Source: Halobacteriovoraceae bacterium (GTDB lineage Bacteria > Bdellovibrionota > Bacteriovoracia > Bacteriovoracales > Bacteriovoracaceae). Taken from it: DNA of 64,000 nucleotides. The notes beneath the pieces are model-generated. The model was not told the origin of the DNA. It searched no databases and saw only the letters and a list, made by a program, of their open reading frames with translations. Positions 15,352 to 38,085 of this stretch are shown here, one piece after another. The translations under genes and the position numbers were made by a program. The stretch spans positions 118,822 through 182,821 of the forward strand of contig PASP01000006.1 of NCBI GenBank assembly GCA_002712005.1, written 5' to 3'. Numbering within the stretch: position 1 is the stretch's first letter; each line of letters begins with the position of its first letter.

Positions 15352-15374
15352 TATAGGGAGCCTTGCTCCCTATA
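15352..15374. terminator. Bidirectional hairpin between convergent genes
   Basis: TATAGGGAGC pairs perfectly with GCTCCCTATA over 10 bp with a 3-nt loop, followed on the plus strand by ATTTTC. It overlaps the last codons of the leftward gene at 15370. Confidence 0.7.
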
Positions 15375-16476
15375 ATTTTCTTAGGATTTCAAATCGATAA
15401 ACACCGACTTTCTCAGTTAAACAAAGATCAGAAAATTCAGAAGTGATCTCTTCAAAGCCGGAACGATCACAGTCTGGTTTTCTTAAATAATGGCGCATAC
15501 AAATGACTCCCCCCTTACGTACTGAAGGAGCCATATCTTGTAGAAATTCTTTTTCTACTTTTCCAGAGAAGTAGCTAGGAACATCAGATAGAGAGAGATA
15601 ATCAAATTGATTTTCATAGAGAGGTGAATTTAACAATTCCACCATATTTCCTTGAACCATCTCATAGCATGACTCACTTGATTGAATTCGCTCTTTCACT
15701 TTCAAGTAATTTGACTCCCACGCTTCAATAGGATTACCGTCTGAATGAGTTATCTTTCCATAGAAACAGAGATGGGCAAAGAAGCTCTCACGAGCTAGAG
15801 AGTGAGTGAATAAATTCTCAAAACTCTTCTTATAGTAATCAAAGTGAGATTCGGGATAATTCTTTACTATAAAATCTCCCTTATAGAGTAAGGCATTAAA
15901 GACCGATTTATTTCCTAAAAGAAAGAGAAGGGCCTTCCAATTGAGATTGGAAAACTTGTCATAGAAGAATTCTCTTTGTTCATCAAGATCATGAAAATCA
16001 AAAATACGATCATGATCCTTCTTTAAAATAACTCTCAAGGCCTTACTTAGAGTTTGAAAGGTTCTTTCCCAACGGCCGTAATAGAGAAGGGATTGCCATT
16101 TAATTTCAGAAAATACCCCATAGAAGAATTCTTTATCACTTTCTTCCAGCTCTAATTGATAAAAGATTTCCTTTCTTCTTCTTGAGTTATCTTGGGCGTG
16201 ATAGGGAGCATAATCAAAGAATAAGAGGAAGTCTTGGAAATCTAGATCTGAATTCTTATAGAGACTGGCCCTCAAGCGCGAAAGAGCTAATTGATAGGGG
16301 CCGACGTCATTTAATACCAGAGATTCACATTGCTCCAGTAAGGGTAAGGCCCTTGAACCACACCCTGCGATAGAAAAGACATTCTTAGAATCTAACTTCT
16401 TGATGATCTCAAGATCAACAGAGGTATCCTCATTTCCGAGAGTATAATTTAGCTGTCCGAAATATTTCTTAGTCAA
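15370..16476 (-). CDS. DUF3419 / BtaA-like aminocarboxypropyl transferase
   Basis: The 368-residue protein resembles DUF3419 proteins, which include BtaA, the enzyme that moves 3-amino-3-carboxypropyl from SAM onto diacylglycerol to start betaine-lipid synthesis. Evidence is the SAM-site motif NVFSIAGCGSRALPLLEQ followed by VLNDVGPYQLALSRLR near residues 30-65, the segment DFQDFLLFF, and the late motif FDYLSLSDVPSYF, typical of the family. No btaB methyltransferase is adjacent, so the betaine lipid itself may not be the product. It sits 9 bp after the acyl-ACP-reductase-like gene as the last gene of the leftward lipid operon. Family call is fairly confident; the acceptor is unknown. Confidence 0.75.
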   Translation of the reverse strand: MTKKYFGQLNYTLGNEDTSVDLEIIKKLDSKNVFSIAGCGSRALPLLEQCESLVLNDVGPYQLALSRLRASLYKNSDLDFQDFLLFFDYAPYHAQDNSRRRKEIFYQLELEESDKEFFYGVFSEIKWQSLLYYGRWERTFQTLSKALRVILKKDHDRIFDFHDLDEQREFFYDKFSNLNWKALLFLLGNKSVFNALLYKGDFIVKNYPESHFDYYKKSFENLFTHSLARESFFAHLCFYGKITHSDGNPIEAWESNYLKVKERIQSSESCYEMVQGNMVELLNSPLYENQFDYLSLSDVPSYFSGKVEKEFLQDMAPSVRKGGVICMRHYLRKPDCDRSGFEEITSEFSDLCLTEKVGVYRFEILRKL

Positions 16477-16485
16477 AGTAAACTC

Positions 16486-18561
16486 CTATTTTACCTCTAG
16501 TTTTCTCTTTACATGCTCACGGCATAAGTCAAATTCATCATCACCAATAAAGCCATTATGCCCCATAATACAACTGAGTTTTACACCATGTTCAGAGGCC
16601 ATACGGTCAATTTCAAGTACCTTCTCATAAGAGATCACGCGAGAAAGGGTGAAGCTCTCAAAGGTTCCATCCATGGCCAGAAGGGCCGTTTCCGCTAAAC
16701 AAGCGTAGACAATATTTCCTTCGAGCCCAAGATCCACTTTAAAATCAACAGGACCCGGAAGCATAACCTCACCGGAGGCAATGACCATAACATCAGGTCG
16801 AGAAAGAGCATCTTCCTCTGAAATATCAAAAGGACGAGAGACATCACAAATGATGGCACCAGATTTCACCTTATCAATGTCGAGAATTTTCTTACCTTGA
16901 GCACTCGTTGTGGTAATGATCAAATCACAACTGCTACTATAATCATCGGGATCCGTTGATACGTGAATCTTTACCTCGGAATCAATCTCCTCTATTTCTT
17001 CTTTCAATTCTAAAATTATATAGGCCCTAGGGGCAACGAGAACAATCTCATCCCAATTTTGGGCAAGAATCTTTGCACTAACGGCACCAATACTCCCTGT
17101 TGCTCCTACCACCATAACACGGCCTTTATAACGACCATCGACTTTATCGACCAGATTTAAACGCTCTAGTGCAAACTTGGCCGCCCATAGGGTGGCACAG
17201 GCACTTAAACTATTTCCCGTGGTCACAGGGATCGGAGATCGTTCATTAACACTTACTCCTGCATCGCCGACAATTTTAGTATAAGCTCCAAGTCCAATAA
17301 TTTTGGCGCCCTTATCATGGGCCTGATAACAAAAGCGAATAAGTCTTCTATAAACTTTATCCACATCCTTTTCCATTAACTTCTTAGGGGTCTCCGTCAT
17401 CATATAGATGAGGCCTTCCACTTCCCTACCATTTTTTTCTGAACGAATACCTTTCATTTTTCCCCAGTAAAAACCAGGAAAAGCGCTGATCACTTCTTCT
17501 GCGATAGGAAGCAAAGGTCTAGATATTGGAAGAAGAGGTTTTAAAAGAGGATGTCGAAAGAGATGTTTCTTACTCAAAGGATGAACAATGAAAGCAAATT
17601 TGGTGGTTCCTTCAGCCTTACTAGACAATAAAGAATCACGATTCTTTTCTCTATTGCATTTTTTGAGATCAATTAAATGAACAAGTTCATCTTTTCTCTC
17701 ACGAGACTCCATCCACCCAATGATAATTTGATCTGTTAACCTATCATCATCCGAGTAGCAGCTGTAGATGAGTGCTTCAATTAGCGAAAAACTTAAGTGC
17801 TCATGCTCCATAAGTTTTGGCATACAAACGAGACAATTCTCAACGCCTACTGCTTTAAATTTCTCTTCTAGACTAGCACTCAAAAAATCAACGATAACGG
17901 TTTTTCCCTCTAAATGGGAGAGATCCAAGAGATGAAAGGTGCTCGCATTTCCCATAAAGTAATCAGAATAGAGAAAAGGCTTAAAACTATTGGGCAGGTC
18001 TGTGAATCTTCCCAATTTAGAATGCTTAATCTTCATTTTCTTGAATACTGGAGTTAAGAATTTTGCAAAGCGAGTTAACTGACCTTTGGAACGCAGAAGC
18101 TTAGGAACTCCCAAATAGAAGTAAGGATCACCCAATTTAATTTTTGAACCAAATGAAGTGAGATCATCTAAGAGAGAATAATTGAAAGCTCCCGAATAAA
18201 TACTGATCTTCTTGGAAGCAAAGAATTTAGGATTCTTATAATGAAATTTTCTTAAGGCCCAAGGAAGATAAGTTTTCTTAATTAAGCTCCCATCAAATAA
18301 TGGAGTTACCTTCGCATAGGAGGCCAATTTTTGAATCTCTGGATGCATGAAGGTAATTTCTTTGGAATTAATAATGGGAGGAATACCATTTAAAGAAAAA
18401 GCATCCACTCGCCCATCGTATTCTTTAATGAGAGAAGCCGCCAATTCAAAATTGAATCCCAAGTTATATTGAGAGATACGTATTTCTTCACCATCAAAGT
18501 CATAAATTTCGTCACCGCTTGTGCCGTAACTTGAATAGGAAAGGGAGATTATATGTTTCAT
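16486..18561 (-). CDS. Acyl-ACP-reductase-like fusion protein
   Basis: The 691-residue protein has two parts. Residues about 1-320 match no domain I know. Residues about 330-691 resemble cyanobacterial long-chain acyl-ACP reductase (AAR), which makes fatty aldehydes. Shared features are AFIVHPLS at the start, IIGLGAYTKI, PVTTGNSLSACA, the NADPH loop VVGATGSIGA near 480, GAIICDVSRPFDIS and a C-terminal CLAETALLAMDG segment. Cyanobacterial AAR is about 340 residues, so the N-terminal half is an extra domain. The catalytic cysteine used by AAR is not certain by eye; SACATLW is a candidate. It is the third gene of the leftward operon. The predicted role is thioester reduction to an aldehyde or alcohol. 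Confidence 0.7.
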   Translation of the reverse strand: MKHIISLSYSSYGTSGDEIYDFDGEEIRISQYNLGFNFELAASLIKEYDGRVDAFSLNGIPPIINSKEITFMHPEIQKLASYAKVTPLFDGSLIKKTYLPWALRKFHYKNPKFFASKKISIYSGAFNYSLLDDLTSFGSKIKLGDPYFYLGVPKLLRSKGQLTRFAKFLTPVFKKMKIKHSKLGRFTDLPNSFKPFLYSDYFMGNASTFHLLDLSHLEGKTVIVDFLSASLEEKFKAVGVENCLVCMPKLMEHEHLSFSLIEALIYSCYSDDDRLTDQIIIGWMESRERKDELVHLIDLKKCNREKNRDSLLSSKAEGTTKFAFIVHPLSKKHLFRHPLLKPLLPISRPLLPIAEEVISAFPGFYWGKMKGIRSEKNGREVEGLIYMMTETPKKLMEKDVDKVYRRLIRFCYQAHDKGAKIIGLGAYTKIVGDAGVSVNERSPIPVTTGNSLSACATLWAAKFALERLNLVDKVDGRYKGRVMVVGATGSIGAVSAKILAQNWDEIVLVAPRAYIILELKEEIEEIDSEVKIHVSTDPDDYSSSCDLIITTTSAQGKKILDIDKVKSGAIICDVSRPFDISEEDALSRPDVMVIASGEVMLPGPVDFKVDLGLEGNIVYACLAETALLAMDGTFESFTLSRVISYEKVLEIDRMASEHGVKLSCIMGHNGFIGDDEFDLCREHVKRKLEVK

Positions 18562-18574
18562 TCAATCTTTCTTT

Positions 18575-19705
18575 TCAATGCTTGAAATGCTTTAGTGAAT
18601 ATTCCAATATTGTATCAGAAAATTCACTATATTGAGGAATCTCTATACTTTTCTTTAGTTCACCTTCTAGGAGATGGGAAGTCACTCTTCCTTTAGAAGT
18701 CATATAGTCGGCCAAAGATTCAGGGATCGAAAACTTCTTAAGGATCTTCTTCGTTAAAGGAAGAAGAAAGGAGTTAAAAAGAGGATTATTCACAGGTAAT
18801 GCCCTCACCTCAAGTTCTATTCCCATTATTCTAAGGAAGTCATCCATGAGCCTCTTATGGGTCGGGGGATGCTTGGCAATGATATGAAGCACTCTTAGCG
18901 AGGGTTGATCTATGTCTTTCTTTTCTTTCTTATGTTTCTTTTGATTTTTGAGCCCATTTATTACACTTGCTGCAAAATCAACGGGGACGATAGGAATCTC
19001 AGAAGTTTCTTGATAAGGAAAATAGATAAAAGGTAATTGGTTAACGATATCTCTTTGCTTCTTTAACAGAGTCAAATGCTTGAGTAAGAAATAAGGTCCA
19101 TCCATCCTCGACATGTGCCCCGTTTGAGAATGGCCAACGACAATTCCAAAACGAGCAATCGTAACTCTTACTTGAGGTCGTTTATAAGCGAAGTCTCTGA
19201 CCAATTTTTCTGATTCAAATTTTGATTGAGAATAAGCATCCGGGAACTCCTGCCCAAGATCAAAATCAGCTTCACTAAAGATCCCTTGCCAATTACCTGC
19301 AACCGCAATTGTACTTGCAAAGAATACCTCTTTCAAAGACTTCATTCGCGCGGCTAAAAAAAGAAGATTCTGAGTGCCGACGACGTTGACCTTAAAGAGT
19401 TTAGAATAAGGAGCTTTAAGATCGTATAAAGCGGCGAGATGAACAATTCGATCGATCTTCCCCAGATCTTCTTCTAGGCCATCTTGCTTTGAATGAGCTG
19501 TAAAAATATCTGGAGAGAGAAGATCCCCTATTCTATATTCAATATGATCCCATTGATGATTTTCAATGAGATCTTTGTAATACTCTTCATGGCGCTCACG
19601 AATAAGCAGAATATAGCGCTCTTTCTTTGCAGAAGAGGACGCCATAATGATTTTTAAATATTCGCTACCGATCAGACCGGTAATTCCTGTAACAAGTGTA
19701 ATCAT
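18575..19705 (-). CDS. Extended SDR reductase/epimerase (thioester- or fatty-acyl-reductase-like)
   Basis: The 376-residue protein has the Rossmann loop TGITGLIGSEYL at its N-terminus, VHLAALYDLKAPY near residue 90, a catalytic serine in FFASTIAVAG, and the YxxxK pair in DAYSQSKFESEKLV near 170, so it is an extended short-chain dehydrogenase. The longer spacer and RFGIVVGHSQTG favour the male-sterility/thioester-reductase or OleD-like branch over sugar epimerases. It follows the kinase-like gene by about 16 bp and precedes the AAR-like gene by 13 bp in the leftward operon. Reduction of a lipid carbonyl is the inferred job; substrate and cofactor preference are not visible. Confidence 0.75.
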   Translation of the reverse strand: MITLVTGITGLIGSEYLKIIMASSSAKKERYILLIRERHEEYYKDLIENHQWDHIEYRIGDLLSPDIFTAHSKQDGLEEDLGKIDRIVHLAALYDLKAPYSKLFKVNVVGTQNLLFLAARMKSLKEVFFASTIAVAGNWQGIFSEADFDLGQEFPDAYSQSKFESEKLVRDFAYKRPQVRVTIARFGIVVGHSQTGHMSRMDGPYFLLKHLTLLKKQRDIVNQLPFIYFPYQETSEIPIVPVDFAASVINGLKNQKKHKKEKKDIDQPSLRVLHIIAKHPPTHKRLMDDFLRIMGIELEVRALPVNNPLFNSFLLPLTKKILKKFSIPESLADYMTSKGRVTSHLLEGELKKSIEIPQYSEFSDTILEYSLKHFKH

Positions 19706-19721
19706 AGAGTATTACTCTTCG

Positions 19722-20696
19722 TTATTGAGTGAGAGTAACTTGAGAACAATAAGACAAAAATGAACTTTCTTTTTCCATACAATAAACGAGCAATGATTTA
19801 GGGAGAATTTTAATATCCCAGCTTCGGCAGGATTGGTGAAAGACTTCCCCATCCCCAAAGAAATTGACGTCCTTCTCGCTCGACTCCAAAAGTTCTACTT
19901 TAAGAGCATCTGTTTCAAAAGATAGAAAATGCGGATCTTGACTCATATCTGATCCCTTTGACATGGACCATAAGCACTGAAGTACTTGAGCACGTGAACG
20001 ATGCTTAAAGAGGCTAATATTCATTTTTCCATCAGAGTTATCAGCTCCAGGAGCAACGGTAAATCCCCCACCAAGAACCTTTTGGTTATTGATTAAAAGG
20101 GCGGGTCCTTCGACAATACCGGAGAACTCCTTGGATTCAATTTTAAATTTATAGCGATTAAATCGAGGATCGAGTAATTCAGTTGCAGCAAAGAAAGAAT
20201 AAACACTTCGGCCTGAATACTTCATGAAAGTTTTAAAGAGAGGTATTTTCTTTCTCATTTCATTGATTTGATTGGCAACACGACCACCAAATCCAATCCC
20301 CCCATTCGTAGCCATCAATTGTCCATTAACGGAAATAAGATCGATTTTCTTTGTTTGCCGGGCCCTAATCTGGGAAAGTGCATGTCGAATCGAATGCTTC
20401 GTTCCCAGTTCAGCTGCAAGATCATTGGCCGTTCCCCCGGGAATAACGAGGAGTCCTATATTTTCACCAGCTAATTTTTGAATCAGAGTATTGGCCGTAC
20501 CATCACCTCCAACGGAGATAATACTATCGACTCTTCTTTTGATATCAAATTCAAGATTATCTCGTAGTTCATCTATAGAATCCGGTCTTCTAAAGGTAAC
20601 CGAACTTCTAAAAAGACAGCGGAGGATCTCTTTTTCCCAGACTCCTGCATCCGCTTTTCCAGCACGTGAATTTAGATAAACAGCGATTTCTTGCAT
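19722..20696 (-). CDS. Diacylglycerol/lipid kinase family protein
   Basis: The 324-residue protein belongs to the DAGK_cat/YegS family of soluble lipid kinases. It shows the N-terminal YLNSRAGKAD, the nucleotide loop SVGGDGTANTLIQ, the second motif VIPGGTANDLAAELG, and NGGIGFGGRVA. It would phosphorylate a diacylglycerol-, sphingoid- or other lipid alcohol with ATP. The frame opens at TTG 20708, but ATG 20696 has GGGAAG at the right distance, so I prefer it. It is first in the leftward operon of four lipid-type genes and divergent from the formyltransferase gene across about 150 bp. Confidence 0.85.
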   Translation of the reverse strand: MQEIAVYLNSRAGKADAGVWEKEILRCLFRSSVTFRRPDSIDELRDNLEFDIKRRVDSIISVGGDGTANTLIQKLAGENIGLLVIPGGTANDLAAELGTKHSIRHALSQIRARQTKKIDLISVNGQLMATNGGIGFGGRVANQINEMRKKIPLFKTFMKYSGRSVYSFFAATELLDPRFNRYKFKIESKEFSGIVEGPALLINNQKVLGGGFTVAPGADNSDGKMNISLFKHRSRAQVLQCLWSMSKGSDMSQDPHFLSFETDALKVELLESSEKDVNFFGDGEVFHQSCRSWDIKILPKSLLVYCMEKESSFLSYCSQVTLTQ

Positions 20697-20845
20697 GATA
20701 CTTCCCAACTAAATTTAACTAACAGGATTAAGTTTACTTTTATTTGTTCGTTTTTTGGGCAAGGCCGTAAAGATTACGCCCACCTGTAGGAAATATGACA
20801 TCTGGCCCTTAAAATAGATTTTACGAATTAAAAGGAGCTAAGCTA
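20697..20845. promoter_or_regulatory. Divergent promoter region of the lipid-type cluster
   Basis: This 149-bp gap must drive both the leftward four-gene and rightward operons. A TAAAAT at 20810-20815 could be a rightward -10 box, but no convincing -35 sits at 17 bp. No clear operator palindrome was found by eye. Confidence 0.4.
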
Positions 20846-21616
20846 TTGAAAGTATTACTTGTTACAAGTGAAATTAATTATATGCCTGATAATTACGACC
20901 GTCTAATTGAAGGACTATTACAGGTAGGGTCTGCGGATTATAAAGTGGAGGCCGTGGTTTCCCTTAAAACCCTCGATAAAAAACTCCTCCATCCCCTTAT
21001 GAAAATGCCCTTTGCCGGTATGTGGGAAATGGCCTCGCAAATTCTAAAGAATATAAGCAGAGAGAAACTCTTTAGGAAAAGAGATCAATTATGCGCTAGG
21101 TTTCACTGTTCCCATTTCAAATGGGAATCCATGAATACTTCAGAGGCCATTAACTGGGTAAGAGATAATCATATTGATCTCATTATCAATTTAAGAACTC
21201 GCTGTATCTACAAGAAGAAAATTTTAGAGGCCCCTCGCCTAGGCTGTATTAATATTCATCACGGAATTCTTCCCTCTTATCGCGGAACATTCTGCGATCT
21301 CTATGCATTGAGTGAATATAGGCCTGCAGGATACAGCATCCATAAAATGGTAAAGAAGATAGATGATGGCGAGGTTTTCAAAGTAACTCCTGTCTATAAG
21401 AGAGAGAGAGGAGAAAGAATAAGTTATCAAGAGTATTTGGAACGAACCATTGAAAAGGAAATAATAGACTTAAACTCTCTTCTAAATGAGATTTCCCTAG
21501 GCGGAAAACTCCCAAAACCACTGGAATTTTCTGAGGAATCTACCGATATAGTTTACACAAAAAATCCAAATTACAAGAAAATTAGATCCTTAATCAAAGA
21601 AGGTATCACTTTATGA
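20846..21616 (+). CDS. Formyltransferase-family protein
   Basis: The 256-residue protein resembles the formyltransferase superfamily (methionyl-tRNA formyltransferase, GART, ArnA N-domain). The core motif is NIHHGILPSYRGT with catalytic Asn136 and His138, and the acidic residue is Asp173 in KKIDDGEVF, in the same order as those enzymes. The N-terminal third is less typical, and no C-terminal tRNA-binding domain is present, so it is not Fmt. TTG start is preceded by AAAAGGAGC. It ends in ATGA, overlapping the hydrolase/AMP-ligase gene by 4 bp. It probably formylates an amine on a small molecule or lipid intermediate using formyl-THF; this is inference. Confidence 0.7.
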   Translation: MKVLLVTSEINYMPDNYDRLIEGLLQVGSADYKVEAVVSLKTLDKKLLHPLMKMPFAGMWEMASQILKNISREKLFRKRDQLCARFHCSHFKWESMNTSEAINWVRDNHIDLIINLRTRCIYKKKILEAPRLGCINIHHGILPSYRGTFCDLYALSEYRPAGYSIHKMVKKIDDGEVFKVTPVYKRERGERISYQEYLERTIEKEIIDLNSLLNEISLGGKLPKPLEFSEESTDIVYTKNPNYKKIRSLIKEGITL

Positions 21617-22908
21617 TAACACCTACGTTTTATACATTTCACGGTTCACCAGGAACTCCCTATGACTTTTATCCTATTGAGATGATTTTCATCCAGGCCA
21701 AATGGAAAGGATTCATTCGCTATACACAGAGTATGCCTGAAATTACCCATGCAAAGAATGAATTTCCCATCGCAATGGGATACTCCTATGGATGTATAGA
21801 TGCCTTAAAAGTAGCGGCTAAGAATGAAGAGATTAAAGCACTCGTTCTCATCTCGCCCTATGTACACAATACAAAAACATCACTACTCAAGAAGCTTATA
21901 GCGGTAGCTCCCGGAATTGGGAGAAAAATCCTAGAGAAGAAAGCGCCTGAGGCCATAGATGACTTCTTAATCAAGTCATCTTATCCCGATGCTCCCACTG
22001 AAGGTTATCTTAAATACGGTGAAAACTTAAAGAATGCCAAACTTCTACAGGCCTCCCTATGGGAAAAGAAAGATCGTGATACTGAAGTATTAGGATATAT
22101 TAACCAACTAAAGGAAAGAAAAATTCCCATACTCATTCTTTGGGGTAAAGAAGACCAAACTTCAAGCTATGCCGAACAAATCAAGCCTTTGGTAGACCGT
22201 CTTCCCATGGCCCAGCTCTGTGAAATCCAAGGAGGGCACGCTCTTTCCTACACTCAGACAGCAAAGGTGATAGAAAATCTCGCCGACTTTTGTAGGAGTG
22301 AAATCAAAAAAGTTTTCATCGGTGCAAAAGTGAGAGAGCTTCAAAAGAAGGAAGAAGATGAATACGATTATCTCAACCCTGAAACCCCCTTTGGTAAATA
22401 TGAAGGGAATCATAAACTGAATAATGTAAGTGCGTTTATGTATCAGCATCTCAAGAAGAATAGAAAAACTTCGATTCTTTCTTGGGCCCATCCTACTCAT
22501 TTAGAAATGTGGAAGAATAAAGAGCTACCTCTACTTCCCCATAGCTCTATCAGTGTGGAAGATCTCGACTATTTAGTAGGAAAAATTGCAGCCGGTTTAA
22601 AAGCGCAGGGAATAGAAAAAGGAGATCGAATTATTATCTTTATCCCAATGAGTCTCTATCTCTATTCAGCAATGTTTGCTGTCCAAAAGATTGGGGCCAT
22701 TGCTGTTTTCCTAGATAGCTGGGCGCGAAGGGATCAAATGGGTGTAGCAGTAGATGTTGTAAAACCCAAGGCGATTATTTCAGTGGAAAGGGCCTTTGAT
22801 TATCTCGATAATATTCCCCAGATTAAAGAAATTCCCATACGAATTGTAGCGGCAGCTCATGAAAAAAAAATATACGATCACGCTAGAAGAGCTTATGCTC
22901 ACCGATGA
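21613..22908 (+). CDS. Serine alpha/beta hydrolase fused to N-terminal half of OleC-like AMP-ligase (5' part of split gene)
   Basis: Residues 1-230 are an alpha/beta hydrolase: FHGSPGTPYDF oxyanion loop, nucleophile Ser58 in GYSYG, acid in ILWGKEDQTS and base in GGHALSYT. Residues about 265-415 are the first half of an acyl-adenylating enzyme (GIEKGDRIIIFIPMSLYLY, KIGAIAVFLDSWARRDQMG), as in OleC. The frame then runs into a stop at 22906 shortly after an A9 tract at 22862-22870, while the rest of the ligase continues in the +1 frame. Removing one A would restore a single ~830-residue OleB-OleC-like fusion. Unlike true OleB, the nucleophile is Ser, not Asp. Confidence 0.75.
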   Translation: MITPTFYTFHGSPGTPYDFYPIEMIFIQAKWKGFIRYTQSMPEITHAKNEFPIAMGYSYGCIDALKVAAKNEEIKALVLISPYVHNTKTSLLKKLIAVAPGIGRKILEKKAPEAIDDFLIKSSYPDAPTEGYLKYGENLKNAKLLQASLWEKKDRDTEVLGYINQLKERKIPILILWGKEDQTSSYAEQIKPLVDRLPMAQLCEIQGGHALSYTQTAKVIENLADFCRSEIKKVFIGAKVRELQKKEEDEYDYLNPETPFGKYEGNHKLNNVSAFMYQHLKKNRKTSILSWAHPTHLEMWKNKELPLLPHSSISVEDLDYLVGKIAAGLKAQGIEKGDRIIIFIPMSLYLYSAMFAVQKIGAIAVFLDSWARRDQMGVAVDVVKPKAIISVERAFDYLDNIPQIKEIPIRIVAAAHEKKIYDHARRAYAHR

Positions 22909-24100
22909 TTATGCGCAAGCGACACCAGTAGAAAGTGAGCATACCGCATTAATTACTTTTACAACGGGCTCATCAGGTACACCAAAGGGAGCAGATCGCA
23001 GCCACCGTTTTTTGGCCTCTCAACACTACGCCCTTAATCGTCATCTCCCCTATGAAAAAGGCGATGCCGATCTTCCTGCGTTTCCCATCTTCAGTTTGAA
23101 TAATTTAGCAGCAGGAGTAACAACAGTGATTCCCGCTTTTGATGTGGGAACTCCTTCTGAGGACGATGCTAAAATTATTTTAGAACAATTTAAACAAACT
23201 AAAACCACTTGTACGACATTAAGTCCCAGTCTCTTTCGAACCCTTTATAATTATTGCCTCGACAATGAGATTACATTAGATGAGATGAAAAGAATTGTAA
23301 CAGGCGGTGCTCCTGTTGGGAGAGATGATATTGCTTCCATGAAGAAAGTGGCTCCTTCTGCCGAAATTCTTGTCCTCTATGGGTCAACTGAAGTTGAGCC
23401 TATGGCCCATATTGAAGCAGAACAAATGCTAAGAGAAGATCCTCAAGATAAGGATCCAAAATATGTCAGTGATGGGGTCAATGTCGGTCGTTTTGATGAA
23501 GGCCTTGAAGTAAAATTTATCCACATCATTAAAGAATCACTAGAAATTAAAGAAGATAGCGAATGGAGCAAAATAGAAGTTCCCAAGGGTCATGTAGGAG
23601 AAATCCTTGTCTCAGGTGAACATGTTTGCGAACGCTATTACAACAATCCAGAAGCAACTCTTAAAACTAAAATTAGGGATCACCAAGGGAAGATATGGCA
23701 TCGAACAGGAGACCTAGGAAGATTAGATGAAAAGGGTGATCTCTGGTTAGTGGGACGAGTTCACAATGCCATCAATCGTGCCGGTTCGTATATATTTCCA
23801 GTGCGAGCTGAATTTGTCATGAATAAGAGTACCAAAATTAAACGTGCTGCGTATTTAGGAATTCAAGACGAAACTCTGGGCGAAAAAACAGTCGCCGTCT
23901 GTGAATTTGATAAAAGTATTGCAGAAAATGAAAATAAAACCGCTGAAGCACTCAAAGAAGTCAGAGAGCTTCTCGACTATAATGGAATTATTGTTGATCA
24001 TCTTATTTCCTATCACTCTATTCCCATGGATGCCCGTCATCACTCGAAGGTAGAATATAAGAAATTGAGAGAATCACTTAAAGAAGAGGGTCTCCTATAA
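22859..24100 (+). CDS. C-terminal part of OleC-like AMP-dependent ligase (3' part of split gene)
   Basis: This 413-residue frame holds the rest of the adenylating domain: phosphate loop TFTTGSSGTPKG (33-44), DLPAFPIFSLN, the A5 motif LYGSTEVEPM, the A7 motif HRTGDLGRLD and a terminal lysine in RHHSKVEYKKL. The FPxFxLxxxxxGxTTVIP stretch and the RHHSK-type end resemble OleC, the beta-lactone synthetase of olefin biosynthesis. It opens at an ATG placed exactly before the A9 tract (ATGAAAAAAAAA), so independent translation is conceivable, but the protein alone would lack half of the ligase. I therefore treat it with the upstream frame as one gene. Stop TAA abuts the next ATG at 24101. Confidence 0.75.
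   Translation: MKKKYTITLEELMLTDDYAQATPVESEHTALITFTTGSSGTPKGADRSHRFLASQHYALNRHLPYEKGDADLPAFPIFSLNNLAAGVTTVIPAFDVGTPSEDDAKIILEQFKQTKTTCTTLSPSLFRTLYNYCLDNEITLDEMKRIVTGGAPVGRDDIASMKKVAPSAEILVLYGSTEVEPMAHIEAEQMLREDPQDKDPKYVSDGVNVGRFDEGLEVKFIHIIKESLEIKEDSEWSKIEVPKGHVGEILVSGEHVCERYYNNPEATLKTKIRDHQGKIWHRTGDLGRLDEKGDLWLVGRVHNAINRAGSYIFPVRAEFVMNKSTKIKRAAYLGIQDETLGEKTVAVCEFDKSIAENENKTAEALKEVRELLDYNGIIVDHLISYHSIPMDARHHSKVEYKKLRESLKEEGLL
22862..22870 (+). other. A9 homopolymer at the frame junction of the hydrolase/AMP-ligase gene
   Basis: Nine As sit where the reading frame must change by +1 (equivalently, where one A must be omitted). Possible causes are transcriptional slippage on A9, programmed ribosomal frameshifting, a real one-base insertion, or a homopolymer sequencing error. 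The sequence itself cannot decide. Confidence 0.8.
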
Positions 24101-25033
24101 ATGGATTCAACACAATATAAGAGAAATAGATTAGATGAATTAAGACGTTACTTCATTTTTATGAAGGAACGATTTGGCCTTATCGGTAGTTCATTTATGA
24201 TCACCCTATTCGTATTGGCCCACTATGGATTGGTCTATATCAAATCCGATTTAGTAATTGAGACCCATCTTCTCTTTGCTGTCATTTTAGGATCAATTAT
24301 ATTCTTTGTTAAATTACGACTCTATGACGAAATAAAAGACTATGAAGTAGACCTTATTCAAAACCCAGATCGCCCCCTTCCGCGTGGACTCGTTACAAGA
24401 GATGAATTAAAGGAAGGAATAGAGAAGAGAATAATGCTTGAGAGCATCCTCTTTTACGGTGCAGGAATAGAGGCCTTTAGCTCTATCCTTCTCGCCATTG
24501 CTTATAGCCTACTCATGTATAAAGAATTCTTTATTGGTAAATATATTAGACCCCATTTAACTACGTATGCGACCTCCCATACCATTGTAACCTTCTTTCT
24601 ATCATTAGCGATTTTTAGCGCCTTTACCCAATCTTTTATTTGGAACTTAGATGGCGAATATATCTTCTTTTCTCTAATGAGTTGGCTTCTCTTTAATATT
24701 TTTGAATTGGGAAGAAAAATGTATCAGCCTTTTGAAGAAAGAGACCAAGTCGAAAGTTATTCAAAAGTATGGACACGTCCAGGTGCAACTTTACTCGTTC
24801 TTATTCATGCATCTTTAATCCAATGGCTAATCCACAAGATCGAATTCTTTAAAGATCCTCTCTTTCTAATGATATTTAGAATACCTGTGGCCATCCTACT
24901 TCTGGTATCCCTACTCTACTTACTTCTTAAAAAGAGTGTTACCGCAAATCTCTATCGTAATTACAGCACAGTTTTTATACTTTTAAATTATGTCATTATT
25001 TTATTCTTTCTCGCTAAAGCGGCCCTTAACTGA
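24101..25033 (+). CDS. UbiA-like membrane prenyltransferase family protein
   Basis: The 310-residue protein has about seven to eight hydrophobic helices and a cytoplasmic loop VKLRLYDEIKDYEVDLIQNP followed by DRPLPRGLVTRDEL. This resembles the Asp-rich motif I of a UbiA subfamily (DExKDxxxDxxxxPxRPLPRGLV). A second conserved loop, FELGRKMYQPFEERDQVESY, then SKVWTRPGA, fits the motif-II region of the same group, although it lacks the classic DxxxD. UbiA enzymes join prenyl or alkyl chains to aromatic or lipid acceptors at the inner membrane. The ATG directly follows the AMP-ligase stop (TAAATG), so the genes are coupled. The acceptor is unknown. Confidence 0.7.
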   Translation: MDSTQYKRNRLDELRRYFIFMKERFGLIGSSFMITLFVLAHYGLVYIKSDLVIETHLLFAVILGSIIFFVKLRLYDEIKDYEVDLIQNPDRPLPRGLVTRDELKEGIEKRIMLESILFYGAGIEAFSSILLAIAYSLLMYKEFFIGKYIRPHLTTYATSHTIVTFFLSLAIFSAFTQSFIWNLDGEYIFFSLMSWLLFNIFELGRKMYQPFEERDQVESYSKVWTRPGATLLVLIHASLIQWLIHKIEFFKDPLFLMIFRIPVAILLLVSLLYLLLKKSVTANLYRNYSTVFILLNYVIILFFLAKAALN

Positions 25034-25069
25034 TGCCCGATTTAGTCTTCCTATATAAAGGAATTAATT

Positions 25070-27772
25070 ATGTTTTTAATCACTAAAGAATCAACCTTAA
25101 ATTACGCCCATGCTAAGGCCGGTGGAAAAGGTCTCAATTTATATAAAATGGCCAATAAGGGTCTCAATGTTCCTGAATTCAATGTTATTCCTCCTGATGC
25201 ATTTTCTCTTTACTGTGAACAAGTAGGAATTTCACAAGAGATAGATTCACTCCTTCTCTCTTTGGTTGAAACTGATCTCAAACCCAATTTCCTTGAGGTT
25301 TCGCAAAAAATAGAACGATTAATCTTAGAGGCATCTTGGGAAAAGGCATCGTCTATAAAAGATTTTATCGAAGGCGCTTATGATAAACTGAATAAGGATT
25401 GTCTATCCGTTAGATCAAGTGCACTCGATGAAGACGGAGGTGGACATAGTTTCGCGGGACAACTCTCAAGTTTTCTCTTCATCGAAAATAAAAAGGATAC
25501 CCTAGAGTCTGTAAGAAAGTGTTGGGCATCCGGCTTCTCAGAGCGCTCCCTCTTTTATCGCTTTCAAAATAAGCTGGAAATGCAAAAAATTTCAGTTGCC
25601 GTTGTCCTACAAGAGATGATTTTTGCTGAAGTCGCTGGCGTACTCTTTAGTGCCGATCCTATATCGAAAAGTCCAGAGGTCGCTGTCATCAACTCTGTAT
25701 TTGGTGTTGGAGAAGGTTTAGTGAGTGGTCATCTTGAAGGTGATTCCTATCATGTTGAAAAAGGAAGTTATCAAATTATTTCAAAAGAAATAAATCCTCA
25801 AAACGAGATATTCATCAAAGATCCTCATGCTGGTCAGATATCCATAGCTCCTCTTTCTAAAGAAGAAGGTGAAAAAGAAACTCTCAATGAAGAGATGATC
25901 AAAGAACTCATTGAGATGGCAATCACACTAGAAGATATTTATCAAGATCCTCAAGATATAGAGTGGGCCTTCTATCAAGGAAAGCTCTATCTTCTTCAAA
26001 CCCGTCCTATTACGACCGAAACCTATAGTGCCCAGGGTAGACTCTTTATTTGGGATAATTCCAATATTGTAGAAAGTTATGGAGGTCTTACTCTTCCACT
26101 AACCTTTGGTTTTGCCCGCTATGTCTACCATCAAGTCTATGTTCAATTTTGCGAAATCCTTATGGTGCCAGGTGGTCAAATTAGAAAAATGGATGATTTC
26201 TTAAAGAATATGCTTGGGATATTCTATGGACGTGTCTATTACAATCTTCTTAACTGGTACAAGCTCACCAATATCTTACCTGGATATAAATTTAATAGAA
26301 AATTTATGGAAACGATGATGGGGACAGATCAAAGCTTAGCCGATGAAATTGCACAACGTATACGACCACCTGAATATCAAAATACATTAGGGGCACGTTT
26401 CAAAAAAATTATTACTGGTTTTAAATTCTTTTACTTTCATTTAAATATACAAAATATAGTGGATGAATACCTAAGAGTCTTCAATAAACATTATAATCAC
26501 TATCGTAAATTAGATTATTCAAGTATGCGAGCAGATGAGATCTATACTCATTATAGAAAACTTGAAAAGGACTTACTTTGGAAGTGGCATGCTCCAATTA
26601 TTAATGACTTCTTATGTATGGTCCACTTTGGTATCTATAAAACACTAGGTCAGAAATGGTTGGCCCATCTAGGTGATAATTTCTTTAATGATCTTCTCTC
26701 AGGAAATGGGAATCTTGAAAGTGCTGAGCCCACTAAGAGGCTTATTGTCTTAGCGGGAAAAGTATCCAGAGATCAAAAGCTCAAAGAACTTGTCTTAAAG
26801 ACACCAAAAGAAGACTTAATGGAGGCCCTTGCAAGAAGTCCCTTTCAAGAAATCTACACTGATGTCTTAGATTATATTGATAAGTATGGATTTCGCTGTA
26901 TGAGTGAAATGAAGCTAGAACAAATTGATCTGCATCGGGATCCCACTCAACTCTTTGTCTTTCTCAAAAACCTTATCAACGCTGATCAAACAGATCTCGA
27001 ACAATATGAAAAACGTGAGAAAGAAATAAGAGAAAATGCAGAAAAAGAACTCGACAAGAATTTACGTGGATTTAAATCCCTCGTTTTTCACTGGGCCCTT
27101 AAACACACACGAAAAGCAGTTATGAATCGTGAGAATACTCGATTTTGTCGAACACGTATTTATGGAGTGGTTCGTAAGATGTACTACACCATCGGTGATA
27201 AGCTAACGATAGCCGGACAAATAGACTGTTCAAAAGATATTTTCTATCTCACGATAGAAGAGTTTGAAGGTCTATTTGAAGGGACAACCACTACCCATAA
27301 CCTTAGAGAAATCATTCAGGCCAGAAAGAATGAATATGCACGTTTCGAACAGGCTGAAGCACCTGATAGTCGCTTTCATACAAGAGGGCTGGTCTATTAT
27401 AGAAATAAACACTTCCCTGATCCAGTAGAGATAGATGAATCCGACTTGGCCGAAAATCAACTCAAAGGTCTCGGTTGCTCTCCGGGTATTATCGAAGGTG
27501 AAGTAAAAGTGATTATGGGTCCTGAAGATGATATGGAATTAAATGATCAAATTTTAGTAACCTATAGAACCGATCCTGGTTGGATTCCACTCTATCCATC
27601 GGCGAAGGGTCTACTCGTTGAAAGAGGAGGACTTCTTTCTCACTCGGCCGTTGTTGCCAGAGAAATGGGGTTACCGACAATTGTCTCGATTAAGAATCTC
27701 ACCAAGAGATTAAAGACTGGAGATAGAATTCGCTTTGATGGAGAGACAGGCCTAATTGAAATTTTATCTTAA
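25070..27772 (+). CDS. PEP-synthase / rifampin-phosphotransferase-like protein
   Basis: The 900-residue protein has an N-terminal PPDK/PEP-synthase ATP-binding domain (about 1-320: AGGKGLNLYKM, LSVRSSALDEDGGG, FAGQLSSFL, IEWAFYQGKLYLLQTRPITT). A central helical domain follows at about 330-790. The C-terminal swivelling phosphohistidine domain has the catalytic His in GGLLSHSAVVARE, near residue 857. The PEP-binding TIM barrel of true PEP synthase is missing, so the architecture equals rifampin phosphotransferase, which uses ATP to phosphorylate a small molecule giving AMP and Pi. In this operon the acceptor is more likely the cluster's own product. ATG follows AAAGGAATT. It is the last gene of the rightward operon. 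Confidence 0.85.
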   Translation: MFLITKESTLNYAHAKAGGKGLNLYKMANKGLNVPEFNVIPPDAFSLYCEQVGISQEIDSLLLSLVETDLKPNFLEVSQKIERLILEASWEKASSIKDFIEGAYDKLNKDCLSVRSSALDEDGGGHSFAGQLSSFLFIENKKDTLESVRKCWASGFSERSLFYRFQNKLEMQKISVAVVLQEMIFAEVAGVLFSADPISKSPEVAVINSVFGVGEGLVSGHLEGDSYHVEKGSYQIISKEINPQNEIFIKDPHAGQISIAPLSKEEGEKETLNEEMIKELIEMAITLEDIYQDPQDIEWAFYQGKLYLLQTRPITTETYSAQGRLFIWDNSNIVESYGGLTLPLTFGFARYVYHQVYVQFCEILMVPGGQIRKMDDFLKNMLGIFYGRVYYNLLNWYKLTNILPGYKFNRKFMETMMGTDQSLADEIAQRIRPPEYQNTLGARFKKIITGFKFFYFHLNIQNIVDEYLRVFNKHYNHYRKLDYSSMRADEIYTHYRKLEKDLLWKWHAPIINDFLCMVHFGIYKTLGQKWLAHLGDNFFNDLLSGNGNLESAEPTKRLIVLAGKVSRDQKLKELVLKTPKEDLMEALARSPFQEIYTDVLDYIDKYGFRCMSEMKLEQIDLHRDPTQLFVFLKNLINADQTDLEQYEKREKEIRENAEKELDKNLRGFKSLVFHWALKHTRKAVMNRENTRFCRTRIYGVVRKMYYTIGDKLTIAGQIDCSKDIFYLTIEEFEGLFEGTTTTHNLREIIQARKNEYARFEQAEAPDSRFHTRGLVYYRNKHFPDPVEIDESDLAENQLKGLGCSPGIIEGEVKVIMGPEDDMELNDQILVTYRTDPGWIPLYPSAKGLLVERGGLLSHSAVVAREMGLPTIVSIKNLTKRLKTGDRIRFDGETGLIEILS

Positions 27773-29705: not shown

Positions 29706-30353
29706 GTGGAAGCAGATTTTTGGCTCAATCGCTGGCAAGAAAATAAAATTGGATTTCATAGAGAGGACTATCATGAAAAGCTTCTCCAATACTTTCCGGA
29801 ACTCTCCCCTCAAAATGGACAAAAAGTTCTCGTCCCTCTATGTGGCAAAACAAAGGATATGCTATGGCTTCTCAATATGAATCTCTATGTTCATGGAGTC
29901 GAGCTTAGTCGTAAGGCCATAGATTCTTTCTTTATTGAAAATAATTTTGATCGCCCAAAAGAAACTCAAGATCAAGACTTCACCCACTTCACTCATGAAA
30001 ATCTCATCATTAGCCAAGGTGATTTCTTTAAATTAAATTCAGGAGATCAATACGACTATATTTATGATCGTGCGGCCCTAGTGGCCTTACCTCATGAAAT
30101 GCGAACACGTTATAGTGAAGTTATAGAGAATGTCCTGCCAACCGGAGGACAATATCTTCTCATTACCTTTGAATACGACCAAGAAAAAATGGAGGGACCT
30201 CCTTTCAATGTAGATGCCAATGAAGTGCATCGTCTTTTTGAAAAGAGCTTTAAAATAGAACTTAAAGAAACGATGGAGAATGTTCCTGAAGGTCCTCGCC
30301 TTGGTGAGCTCGATAAGTTCAAGCAAAAAGTCTATATTCTAACTAAGAAATAA
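29706..30353 (+). CDS. tpm: Thiopurine S-methyltransferase family protein
   Basis: The 215-residue protein matches the TPMT family: DFWLNRWQENKIGFHR at the N-terminus, KVLVPLCGKTKDMLWL as SAM motif I, VHGVELSRKAID, a YDYIYDRAALVALP loop, and YLLITFEYDQEKMEGPPFNV with the family's PPF motif. Bacterial homologues methylate thiols and also tellurium and selenium compounds; the natural substrate is usually unknown. A GTG start after AAGGAA is used. A short upstream leader frame ends 3 bp before it. The gene is monocistronic in rightward orientation. Confidence 0.9.
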   Translation: MEADFWLNRWQENKIGFHREDYHEKLLQYFPELSPQNGQKVLVPLCGKTKDMLWLLNMNLYVHGVELSRKAIDSFFIENNFDRPKETQDQDFTHFTHENLIISQGDFFKLNSGDQYDYIYDRAALVALPHEMRTRYSEVIENVLPTGGQYLLITFEYDQEKMEGPPFNVDANEVHRLFEKSFKIELKETMENVPEGPRLGELDKFKQKVYILTKK

Positions 30354-31178: not shown

Positions 31179-32582
31179 TTATTTTCTAATAATGAATGAA
31201 TTTTGTAGCGGCAATACAAAATCTTTTAAATCTGGAACAAGGTTACCAAGAGAAATATTCTTCTTCGTTGATCTTTGTGCTTTAACTTCTTTCTTACTTT
31301 GAGCAATGGCATCAGCTAAGCTATGAGTAAGGGCCAATTCAGCAGCTCTTACTGCACGCTCTCTATTTACCATTCCCCCTGTTACTACTTTATCAGCAAG
31401 GAAGGCCTTCTTATCTACTGTCTCCATAATAAGAGTACGCATTTGACCAGGAGTAAGTTTCTCGTTGATTGATTTCATCGCTGTTGCCACTTGGGCTACA
31501 AAAGGAGCGGCTTGAGAGGGTCCACTAACCTTTAAATAGTTATTTCCAGGAACAGCAGACTCAATGGCCACACCAGGTGCAGCTACATCAACCATCGTTT
31601 TACCGTAGTTTGAAAAAGGAGCAATGGCCACATCAGAAAGAGTAGCAGCTACAGAGATGACATTGTCAGATTGGAGATTTGTCGGAGATGCAGGATAAGT
31701 ATCATTATCTAGACCATCATTACCAGCAGCAAATACAAAGAGAGAATTGGGAGCTGCCGCCGTCATCATTTCTCCATGCTCAATAAGCTTGGCAAAGAAG
31801 TGGTGAGCTGCTTCTGCAACTTCTTCTTCCGTGATATCTTTCCAAACTGTCTGAGCAATCGTTTTTACAATTGTCGTAGCTTGAGGCCAACCTGTCCCAA
31901 AAGAACCATTGGCCACATCAGACTTATGTCCTGCTACATAAGCAGCAATCTCTTCCATTTGTAACATTTGTTGCTTGGCCAAAGCACCAAGAGCTTGCTT
32001 AAGAAGGAACATCTTAACGCCCTTATCTTGTTCAGCATTAGACTTAGCGTCTTCTTGTCCAGGAAGCTTAACTTCAGTAGGAATTAATTTAACGGCCAAA
32101 AGCTTAGCTTCATCAACACCTTCAATCGCAATACCACCTACGTGTGTACCGTGCATGAAATTACCATAAATAGAAATCTGCTTAATAAAGTTTTCATCTT
32201 GAAGTTGAGCTCTTGCCCAAGCAAGATCTTCTTCAGTAATGGTTCCAAGCATCGCATCGGTTTGAATTTGAAAGAAACGACGAATATCCTCAGTAAGAGT
32301 TCCAAGGTAGCTATAGTCGATCACTTCCGCATTACCTTCTGCAAAGTTCCAACCATGAATATCATCTTGATATCCGTTACCATCTTCATCTCTTGAATTT
32401 CCTGCGATTTCTACAGGGTTGATCCAAGCCTTAGGTGAAATATCGTTATGGAGCATATCTGTTCCAGAATCAATAATAGCAATTGTCGCCGCTTGAGAAT
32501 AAGGAGCAGCTAGAAAGCCTGTGAGGGCAATTAAAGAAGCTACTGAAGACTTTCTGATAAAAGTCGATATAGAAGTAAACAT
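31179..32582 (-). CDS. Secreted S8 subtilisin-family protease
   Basis: This 467-residue protein has a signal peptide cut after SQA and then immediately the S8 catalytic domain without a propeptide. The catalytic residues are Asp in AIIDSGTDMLHND (residue about 40), His in FMHGTHVGGIAIEG and Ser in VSGPSQAAPFVAQ, with the oxyanion Asn in FVFAAGNDGLDND. The Ser motif GPSQAAP replaces the usual GTSMAAP, and an insert of about 100 residues with helical character lies between His and Asn. Export to periplasm or medium is expected. AAGGAG precedes the ATG and a terminator follows. Confidence 0.85.
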   Translation of the reverse strand: MFTSISTFIRKSSVASLIALTGFLAAPYSQAATIAIIDSGTDMLHNDISPKAWINPVEIAGNSRDEDGNGYQDDIHGWNFAEGNAEVIDYSYLGTLTEDIRRFFQIQTDAMLGTITEEDLAWARAQLQDENFIKQISIYGNFMHGTHVGGIAIEGVDEAKLLAVKLIPTEVKLPGQEDAKSNAEQDKGVKMFLLKQALGALAKQQMLQMEEIAAYVAGHKSDVANGSFGTGWPQATTIVKTIAQTVWKDITEEEVAEAAHHFFAKLIEHGEMMTAAAPNSLFVFAAGNDGLDNDTYPASPTNLQSDNVISVAATLSDVAIAPFSNYGKTMVDVAAPGVAIESAVPGNNYLKVSGPSQAAPFVAQVATAMKSINEKLTPGQMRTLIMETVDKKAFLADKVVTGGMVNRERAVRAAELALTHSLADAIAQSKKEVKAQRSTKKNISLGNLVPDLKDFVLPLQNSFIIRK

Positions 32583-32855
32583 AAACTCTCCTTAGTATAT
32601 ATGTTGCGGATTCCATATTCGTTCCCTTAAATATGTTGGAATGAATCCTTAGTCATTTTATGCAGTTAGTATAAAGAATCTGTTTAAGGAAAGTCACGGC
32701 CTTTACTCTGACAATTCCTAACAATATCTCTACACTATCTTTATAATTTCTATAAAATAGAGAAGATATTTAGAGCGTAACACTTGGATGCCTATCTATA
32801 GCTAATATTGTGGCCATTGAAGCTGTATTCTATTATTAACGCGGAGTAATAACCT

Positions 32856-33845
32856 ATGACTCATAAAATTTGGATTCCCGAAGCTCTTGAAGGAATTGAA
32901 AAAGTAGAAGCTTTTATTAATCAGGATATTTCCTCACCTGAGGAGATAATAGAGTTAGATTACCCTCAAGTTGGACAGCGCCGCTTGGAAGAATTCATTG
33001 AGGCCAAGAATAAAGAAGAATACTCGGCGATGGTGAGCCTACTAAGTTATCCCATGAATAGAGAAAACTTAAAAAAAATTTCTCACTTAAAGGCCATTAG
33101 CAACTATGCAGTTGGATACAATAATATTGATCTCGATGCCGCAAGAGAATTGGGAATCCCCGTTGGTTATACTCCTGACGTTTTAAATGAAGCGACGGCC
33201 GACACGGCCCTAACTCTTCTTCTTATGTGCTGTCGAAAAGTCCCTTACGTCACCCGGGAAGTTAAAGAAGGAAATTGGCAAAGCTTTGAACTAAAAAAAT
33301 ATAATGGAATAGATCCGCGAGATCTTCGCATTGGTATTATAGGTATGGGTCGTATTGGAGAAACCTTTGCTCGAAAATGTTACAAACTATGGGGCAATAA
33401 AATCTTTACTCTTAAAAGAAAGAGTCTTGAAAATAGAGAATTTGATTTTCCTATTCAGATCGTTGAAGAGGAAGAATTCTTTAAAGAAGTCAATTTAGTT
33501 AGCTTACACTGTCCCCTCACTGACCAAACCCACAAGATGTTCAATCGCGCGTATATTGAAAAATTTAAGCATCCTCTCGTCTTTATTAATACCGCTAGAG
33601 GGGCCATTCATGAGGAAGAGGACCTACTTTGGGCCTTACGTGAAGGGAAAATAATCTCTCTAGGATTAGATGTTACCGACCCTGAGCCCATGGACAAAGA
33701 TCATCAACTCTTAAAAGATGATAGGGCCATTATATTTCCTCACATCGGATCAGCAACGAAGAGAACGAGATCGGAAATGAGTACGATGGCCCTTAGAAAT
33801 CTTGCGGAAGTTCTAAGGGGAAGAACTATGCCTCACGAGGCCTAG
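32856..33845 (+). CDS. D-2-hydroxyacid dehydrogenase (NAD(P)-dependent)
   Basis: The 329-residue protein fits the D-isomer-specific 2-hydroxyacid dehydrogenase family. It shows the Rossmann loop GIIGMGRIGETFA, the substrate-binding arginine in INTARGAIHEEEDL, the catalytic Glu in LGLDVTDPEP and the catalytic His in FPHIGSATKRTR. It most resembles glyoxylate/hydroxypyruvate reductases and would reduce a 2-oxoacid such as glyoxylate. No catabolic partner is nearby, so the substrate is open. A CGGAG site precedes the ATG. Its end overlaps the last 20 bp of the convergent protease gene. Confidence 0.9.
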   Translation: MTHKIWIPEALEGIEKVEAFINQDISSPEEIIELDYPQVGQRRLEEFIEAKNKEEYSAMVSLLSYPMNRENLKKISHLKAISNYAVGYNNIDLDAARELGIPVGYTPDVLNEATADTALTLLLMCCRKVPYVTREVKEGNWQSFELKKYNGIDPRDLRIGIIGMGRIGETFARKCYKLWGNKIFTLKRKSLENREFDFPIQIVEEEEFFKEVNLVSLHCPLTDQTHKMFNRAYIEKFKHPLVFINTARGAIHEEEDLLWALREGKIISLGLDVTDPEPMDKDHQLLKDDRAIIFPHIGSATKRTRSEMSTMALRNLAEVLRGRTMPHEA

Positions 33846-35358: not shown

Positions 35359-35522
35359 AAAATTCTTCCTTGAATAAGTTTCTATTACCGCTATAGAACT
35401 TGAGGTCCCATCCTAGGACCTCTTTTATTTTACCCCATTTCTAGTAGCAAAAGTTATTCCAAATTTAAGTAGTTGTTTTTGGGAAAAAAGAGCATTAATT
35501 GCCGGAGCCAGTTTGGATATCT

Positions 35523-36398: not shown

Positions 36399-36474
36399 TT
36401 AAGTATTATAGAATTTCAGCCATTTATTGCCACTTAATTGAATTTTTTATAGATGCGTTCACTAAGATATACAC

Positions 36475-36503
36475 AAAAAAAAAGGCCTTCCGAAGAAGAC
36501 CTT
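36475..36503 (-). terminator. Intrinsic terminator of the V8-like protease gene at 36541
   Basis: On the minus strand AAGGTCTTC pairs with GAAGGCCTT (one G-U) around a TTCG tetraloop, followed by a run of nine Ts. Confidence 0.9.
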
Positions 36504-36540
36504 TTTTATAATTGAAAGAATAATTCTCTATTATAAATTA

Positions 36541-37404: not shown

Positions 37405-37595
37405 AACGTTTCCCTTTATTACTTGATTAAAGTGTTCTGTTGCCATGTTGTGAAAGCATTAAACACGTCGGGCCGAACCATTGACAACTTACAATCCCTG
37501 ACATTTTTACACCTGCACCGCGTCACACCGTGTAAACTTTACAATTTCAACCAGTTACAAATTTCTTACAAATAATGTCAGGAAATAAAATTGCG

Positions 37596-38003: not shown

Positions 38004-38030
38004 CTTTAAATTATGAACTAAAAAAGGTGA

Positions 38031-38060
38031 AAAAAAAAGGCCCTTTTTTAAGGGCCTTTT
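38031..38060. terminator. Bidirectional intrinsic terminator
   Basis: AAAAGGCCCTT pairs perfectly with AAGGGCCTTTT (11 bp, 4-nt loop). On the minus strand it is followed by a run of eight Ts, ending the protease gene at 38086. Confidence 0.92.
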
Positions 38061-38085
38061 ATCATTTTTTGAATTTTATCACATT

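Follow-up and report, generated by a model that had tools for sequence, protein, structure and literature searches.

The closest described relatives of the enzymes considered here come from separate systems: the AAR family reduces acyl thioesters, rifampin phosphotransferase (Rph)-type enzymes pass a phosphate from ATP via a histidine, OleB uses an aspartate as its nucleophile, and BtaA/BtaB alone suffices for the betaine lipid diacylglyceryl-trimethylhomoserine (DGTS). Bdellovibrio-like predators reportedly have membrane lipids of their own, as described by Muller and colleagues in 2011 (Lipids 46:1129, cited in PMC7529429), and no genes assigned to such lipids were found in the searchable papers. 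BtaA itself transfers an aminocarboxypropyl unit from S-adenosylmethionine (SAM) (PMC10491745). An eight-gene cluster holding enzymes comparable to these was analysed in a window of 64,000 nt from a Halobacteriovoraceae bacterium (GCA_002712005.1, contig PASP01000006.1, positions 118,822-182,821), and on balance it probably encodes one conserved pathway making an exported, N-capped aminolipid.

Two divergent operons with lipid-type genes had been proposed in a first-pass annotation of the sequence, and all of the genes named there were present in the open reading frame (ORF) list (15370-20708 on the minus strand and 20846-27772 on the plus strand) and were assigned to families by Pfam and NCBIfam scans. 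Outward from the divergent region, the minus strand encodes a diacylglycerol kinase (DAGK)-like enzyme, an extended short-chain dehydrogenase/reductase (SDR), an AAR fusion protein and a DUF3419 protein, while the plus strand encodes a formyltransferase (FMT), a Ser-hydrolase (HYD) fused to an AMP-ligase and present in two pieces, a UbiA-like protein and a phosphotransferase. Genes within either operon were 0-36 bp apart or overlapping. The promoter region shared by the operons had been put at 150 bp; a shared region is indeed present, with a measured length of 137 bp, and most Bacteriovoracales loci have the same divergent arrangement around it. The catalytic residues checked across the sampled loci were invariant or nearly invariant.

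Co-occurrence of the two halves of the cluster was scored in 129 Bacteriovoracales genomes with strong-hit cut-offs of our own choosing (about 250 bits for AAR and about 400 bits for the phosphotransferase), and further loci were drawn from genome contigs. Of the genomes, 57 carried both genes, 7 and 9 carried a single one of them, and 56 carried neither, which corresponds to a Fisher odds ratio of 51 (p=5e-19, a statistic that ignores relatedness). Where both were present they lay on the same contig and less than 20 kb apart in 37 genomes, on different contigs in 19, many of these being fragmented assemblies, and 1.2 Mb apart in one. The DAGK, SDR, AAR, DUF3419, FMT, HYD, AMP-ligase, UbiA and phosphotransferase genes formed a single co-directional operon in L065, L066 and L072 and in part in L134, the halves were swapped in Oligoflexus (L055, L056) and Bdellovibrio (L067/L129), and yet other gene orders were seen among the Bdellovibrio loci L062, L067 and L129. 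Since gene orders differ among loci, the linkage is not merely the shared ancestry of one arrangement. The earlier expectations that linkage would be conserved in Bacteriovoracales and that the eight genes form one conserved unit were thus borne out. That the cluster had no known counterpart holds in so far as no characterised counterpart was found, but not more widely, since it is widespread among Bdellovibrionota and is found in Fibrobacter too.

The Fibrobacter-type loci L058 and L068 contain DUF3419, FMT, AMP-ligase, UbiA and phosphotransferase genes plus a gene for a membrane protein of ~456 aa. In L058, where no DAG-kinase-like gene was present, this protein is encoded beside DUF3419 and had no Pfam match; its motifs suggest that it may be dolichol/phytol-kinase-like. 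The DUF3419 gene accompanies the rightward module in L058 and also in L075. Locus L068 (WREK01000030.1) is titled Betaproteobacteria, and its phosphotransferase groups with Fibrobacter at a support of 100, so that the record may have been misbinned or misnamed.

Among 88 non-identical loci, FMT was present in 36 and a GNAT-type protein of ~340 aa in 33, the latter assigned from one member with PF00583 at 2e-8 and the others by homology to it, and the two never occurred together. HYD was found in 34 of the 88 loci and never with GNAT, while 19 loci, many of which were short or cut, had neither FMT nor GNAT. Two state changes account for the two classes on the phosphotransferase tree: one is a deep split, the other the trio L045/L047/L073, which carries GNAT yet is nested in the FMT clade. 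In this trio GNAT-UbiA-AMP replaces FMT-HYD~AMP-UbiA, with the other genes retained. From this mutual exclusivity and the position of the trio, we infer that FMT(+HYD) and GNAT are alternative amine-capping modules, and the N-formylated amine that had been raised as a possibility fits the same pattern. No GNAT homologue of the cluster type was found by a search of the window's genome. The AMP-ligase was fused to the UbiA-like protein in loci of the sister class (L078, L079, L085, L097, L099-L101, L103, L104, L107), which ties those two steps together. An AHL-lactonase-like metallo-beta-lactamase and a cytochrome P450 were inserted in some GNAT-class clusters (L079, 8363-10566; L100, L101 and L103).

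Export genes were part of the cluster in many relatives and included a LolC/E-like permease (7e-28), an ABC ATPase, a LolA_like protein (PF17131, 6e-32), and an outer-membrane-protein-like protein or RND transporter. An unusual lipid or secreted metabolite had been anticipated as the product, and an exported lipid is consistent with these linked genes. The window's genome has two LolA-like genes and RND genes located away from the cluster.

In the route that we propose, the AAR-type domain would use Cys621 to reduce an acyl thioester, giving a fatty aldehyde, the SDR would produce an alcohol by reducing this aldehyde or a related acyl/keto group, the DAG-kinase-like enzyme would phosphorylate the lipid and the Rph-type enzyme would provide a second activating phosphate from ATP via His858. 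The UbiA-fold membrane enzyme, with the AMP-ligase, may link the head group to an activated chain, either acyl or alkyl, and the DUF3419 protein may add a SAM-derived 3-amino-3-carboxypropyl (homoserine-type) unit. This putative homoserine link is drawn solely from the family membership of the DUF3419 protein. The amine would be capped with a formyl group by FMT with the Ser-hydrolase in the class of the window and with an acyl group by the GNAT enzyme in the sister class, after which, in many relatives, the Lol-like ABC, LolA-like and outer-membrane proteins, or an RND transporter, would move the product to the outer membrane. We advance only tentatively, as a possibility, that this is a new outer-membrane lipid class of predatory bacteria, with a homoserine-type head attached by an Rph-type activating enzyme and a UbiA-fold transferase whose motif II is new, interchangeable formyl and acyl caps and a dedicated Lol-like exporter. 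The cluster is a strong and deletable candidate for the genes behind predator-specific lipids, and the formyl/acyl swap gives the comparative prediction that one lipid should carry different N-caps in related predators. No description of the cluster was found in the open PMC literature, which is weak evidence of novelty as subscription papers lay outside the search.

Table 1. Features of the divergent cluster, in positions of the 64,000-nt window
Feature	Position	Strand	Basis or detail
Putative SAM-dependent 3-amino-3-carboxypropyl transferase, DUF3419 (BtaA-like)	15370..16476	-	PF11899 E=2.1e-28
Fused acyl-thioester reductase	16486..18561	-	N-half 1-320, family not assigned; C-half 321-691 AAR/PigE-type, catalytic Cys621
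Extended SDR, fatty-acyl/aldehyde reductase-like	18575..19705	-	NAD_binding_4 2.1e-32, PRK07201 1.3e-57
YegS/diacylglycerol-kinase-like lipid kinase	19722..20708	-	PF00781 (DAGK_cat 4.5e-17) + PF19279 (YegS_C)
Divergent intergenic region	20709-20845	.	between both operons; sequence
Formyltransferase FMT, N10-formyl-THF (tetrahydrofolate) type	20846..21616	+	PF00551 (Formyl_trans_N) 2.4e-9
Hydrolase~AMP-ligase, first piece: Ser hydrolase domain (~1-230) and ligase start	21613..22908	+	Abhydrolase/AMP-binding
Hydrolase~AMP-ligase, second piece: remaining AMP-ligase, PRK09274/OleC-like	22859..24100	+	PF00501 1.2e-22; PRK09274 327 bits
A9 homopolymer, reading frame shifts here	22862..22870	+	in middle of ligase N-domain
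UbiA-fold membrane transferase, motif I DExKDxxxD, ExxRK replacing motif II	24101..25033	+	relatives' Pfam, fold model
Rifampin-phosphotransferase/PigC-type ATP-dependent phosphotransferase ('PEP synthase' by annotation), catalytic His858	25070..27772	+	NF004881, 5fbs

The DUF3419 domain covered most of its protein (100 bits against a PF11899 cut-off of 28.2), and 13 checked conserved positions were near-invariant across 54 relatives. In the AAR fusion, the C-half matched the PigE model (1.9e-45) and AcACP_reductase (3.9e-11), with the structures of PigE (4ppm) and AAR (6jzq) aligning to residues ~309-660. Its Cys621, which all 50 alignable relatives keep, corresponds in the alignment to the AAR Cys changed to Ser in the 6jzz chain, and the protein remained under the curated cut-offs (155 vs 850 bits, and 42.9 vs 449.7 bits for TIGR04058). 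The N-half was predicted to be Rossmann-type, with carmabin TAD (9e4u) as its best fold match at a TM of only 0.48. Internal duplication as the origin of the two halves is no more than a suggestion, the profiles of the halves being co-linear but not significantly similar (probability 0.9%, P=0.06). Stand-alone homologues of the N-half (33-35% identity) were encoded away from the cluster in L090 (8887-9843), L091 (8592-9545), L092 (8980-9918) and L094 (2995-3951), and inside a cluster, without the AAR half, in L093. A related cluster type encodes PigE-type aminotransferase~AAR proteins (900-993 aa) close to the genes for a UbiA-like protein and a phosphotransferase (L080, 4749-7451; L081, 2927-5866; L082, 3522-6503), with P450 and GNAT in some, and could make amines from fatty aldehydes. 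The TGxxGxxG and YxxxK motifs of the SDR (n=45) and the GGDGT motif of the DAGK-like enzyme (n=43) were invariant.

Structural matches of FMT in the PDB were Fmt, ArnA and sugar N-formyltransferases, and its triad of Asn136, His138 and Asp173 was invariant in 35 of 35 sequences. The hydrolase~ligase is a single ORF of ~800 aa in most relatives, and the window sequence was co-linear with it on both sides of the A9 tract. The change of frame there may reflect an error of sequencing or assembly, a genuine lesion or transcriptional slippage. The P-loop Lys of the AMP-ligase was kept in 71 of 72 sequences; the C-terminal HRTGD motif was unaligned in 28 of the 72, so that the residue check excludes the C-domain of the sister class.

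The UbiA-like protein of the window had no direct Pfam match, while 15 of 26 members of its family matched PF01040. An AlphaFold2 model (pLDDT 90) gave UbiA structures as its best Foldseek matches, nearest to the archaeal DGGGPS structures 7bpu/6m31 (MjDGGGPS; TM 0.62-0.68, 17% identity). Only the first of the two Asp-rich motifs of UbiA was found: DExKDxxxD was invariant or nearly so and ExxRK stood in place of the second motif in 75 of 75 sequences, the ExxRK block being equated with motif II by position and not by structural superposition. The replacement may mean that the donor is not an ordinary prenyl diphosphate and, because of it, ordinary prenyl transfer, the activity that the first-pass annotation gave for UbiA enzymes, is probably not supported. 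A tblastn search of plasmids with this protein gave no match. A UbiA subfamily with its second metal motif replaced is brought to notice.

The phosphotransferase scored 1018 bits against NF004881 (cut-off 883) and 339 bits against the Rph model NF041857 (cut-off 999), and its best full-length match was the Listeria rifampin phosphotransferase (5fbs), with which it aligned end to end. It has the Rph architecture of ATP-binding, middle and C-terminal catalytic His domains (PPDK_N and PEP-utilizers), and His858 was kept in 85 of 85 alignable sequences. The His domain (826-894 of 900) closes the protein, and with no PEP/pyruvate-binding barrel C-terminal to it a PEP synthase is not supported. Of the earlier description, the rifampin-phosphotransferase-like architecture stands and the PEP-synthase part does not. 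NF004881 bears the name phosphoenolpyruvate synthase, yet the proteins that it models are of the Rph/PigC type and have no PEP barrel; the name is probably a misnomer, and we flag it as a misleading curated annotation. The model scores highest in one genus of the phylum (g83), which belongs to another family and is probably Bdellovibrio, since the same phosphotransferase gene is present in locus L067 of B. bacteriovorus.

Downstream of the cluster, two subtilases (S8) surround a D-2-hydroxyacid dehydrogenase and are followed by three trypsin-like proteins (31179-39192). A large part of this protease block is kept downstream of the cluster in relatives.

Several observations weigh against a single pathway to an exported, N-capped aminolipid. 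The halves are truly unlinked in good assemblies of one genus (g15, G042-G046), and the Fibrobacter and L050 genomes have the rightward module but no AAR, which means that not every genome strictly needs the leftward half. No exporter genes were found near the window's cluster and a genome search found no homologue of the Lol-type permease, the hydrolase~ligase gene is frame-broken at A9 in this assembly, and the NCBIfam scan of the DUF3419 protein gave no match at all. The exclusivity of FMT and GNAT is partly phylogenetic, as with only two state changes the module swap comes down to essentially one replacement event besides the deep split. The product and substrates are predicted and the order of the steps is a guess. 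The unlinked halves of g15 and the AAR-less genomes would also suit two neighbouring pathways, a fatty-alcohol/lipid module (DAGK-SDR-AAR, perhaps with DUF3419) next to a module for a formylated secondary metabolite (FMT to phosphotransferase), which share the promoter region for co-regulation only. We regard this as rather unlikely given the odds ratio of 51 and the linkage kept under several gene orders, in which DUF3419 goes with one half or the other.

The remaining explanations start from single enzymes. Membership of the BtaA family by DUF3419 could point to a betaine/homoserine-glycerolipid (DGHS) pathway with the other genes as tailoring functions, which we consider improbable: scans of the eight cluster genes found no N-trimethylating BtaB (the TPMT-like gene at 29706-30353 belongs to the TPMT family and lies outside the unit), the sufficiency of BtaA/BtaB would leave seven conserved enzymes unexplained, and an amine capped with formyl or acyl could not be trimethylated. 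A pyrrole or prodiginine-like pathway, with AAR as PigE and the phosphotransferase in the role of the ligases PigC/RedH, draws on PigE as the best model and PDB match of the AAR half, on PigC/RedH scores of 367-378 bits and on the L080-L082 variant; it is very improbable when NF004881 fits the phosphotransferase far better, the window AAR has no aminotransferase domain and the cluster genes include no further pig/red gene. There is barely any likelihood that the hydrolase~ligase is an OleBC fusion acting in an OleBCD-like route to olefins or beta-lactones, despite the matching domain order and PRK09274 and OleC being the nearest curated models of the ligase. The ligase of an intact relative scored 222 and 220 bits against OleC cut-offs of 850 and 900, the hydrolase carries not an Asp nucleophile but the triad Ser58-Asp181-His209 in 33 of 33 sequences, OleA was not seen in the window, and the GNAT class drops the hydrolase and keeps the ligase. 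Because of the low scores and the invariant triad, the OleC-like beta-lactone chemistry suggested earlier is unsupported. On the features tested, the OleBC, PEP synthase and prodiginine readings were all rejected.

Compared with known systems, the hydrolase~ligase shares with OleBC the order of hydrolase then AMP-ligase in one protein but differs in its nucleophile and in ligase scores far under the OleC cut-offs. The DUF3419 protein shares PF11899 with BtaA of betaine-lipid synthesis and differs in its operon context and in having no BtaB partner. The C-half of the AAR fusion has the AAR-type sequence and catalytic Cys of the PigE N-terminal reductase and cyanobacterial AAR, whereas the window protein adds an N-terminal half and has no aminotransferase domain. 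Export in relatives involves the same protein families as Lol/LolA-like export, with dedicated copies inside the biosynthetic cluster, while none is linked in the window. The UbiA-like protein has the predicted fold and Asp-rich motif I of the UbiA superfamily (MjDGGGPS) and differs in the invariant ExxRK and the occasional fusion to the AMP-ligase. The phosphotransferase has the same domain order and catalytic His as rifampin phosphotransferase (RPH-Lm, 5fbs) and PigC/RedH, although at only 273 bits and with a diverged middle domain it forms a distinct family.

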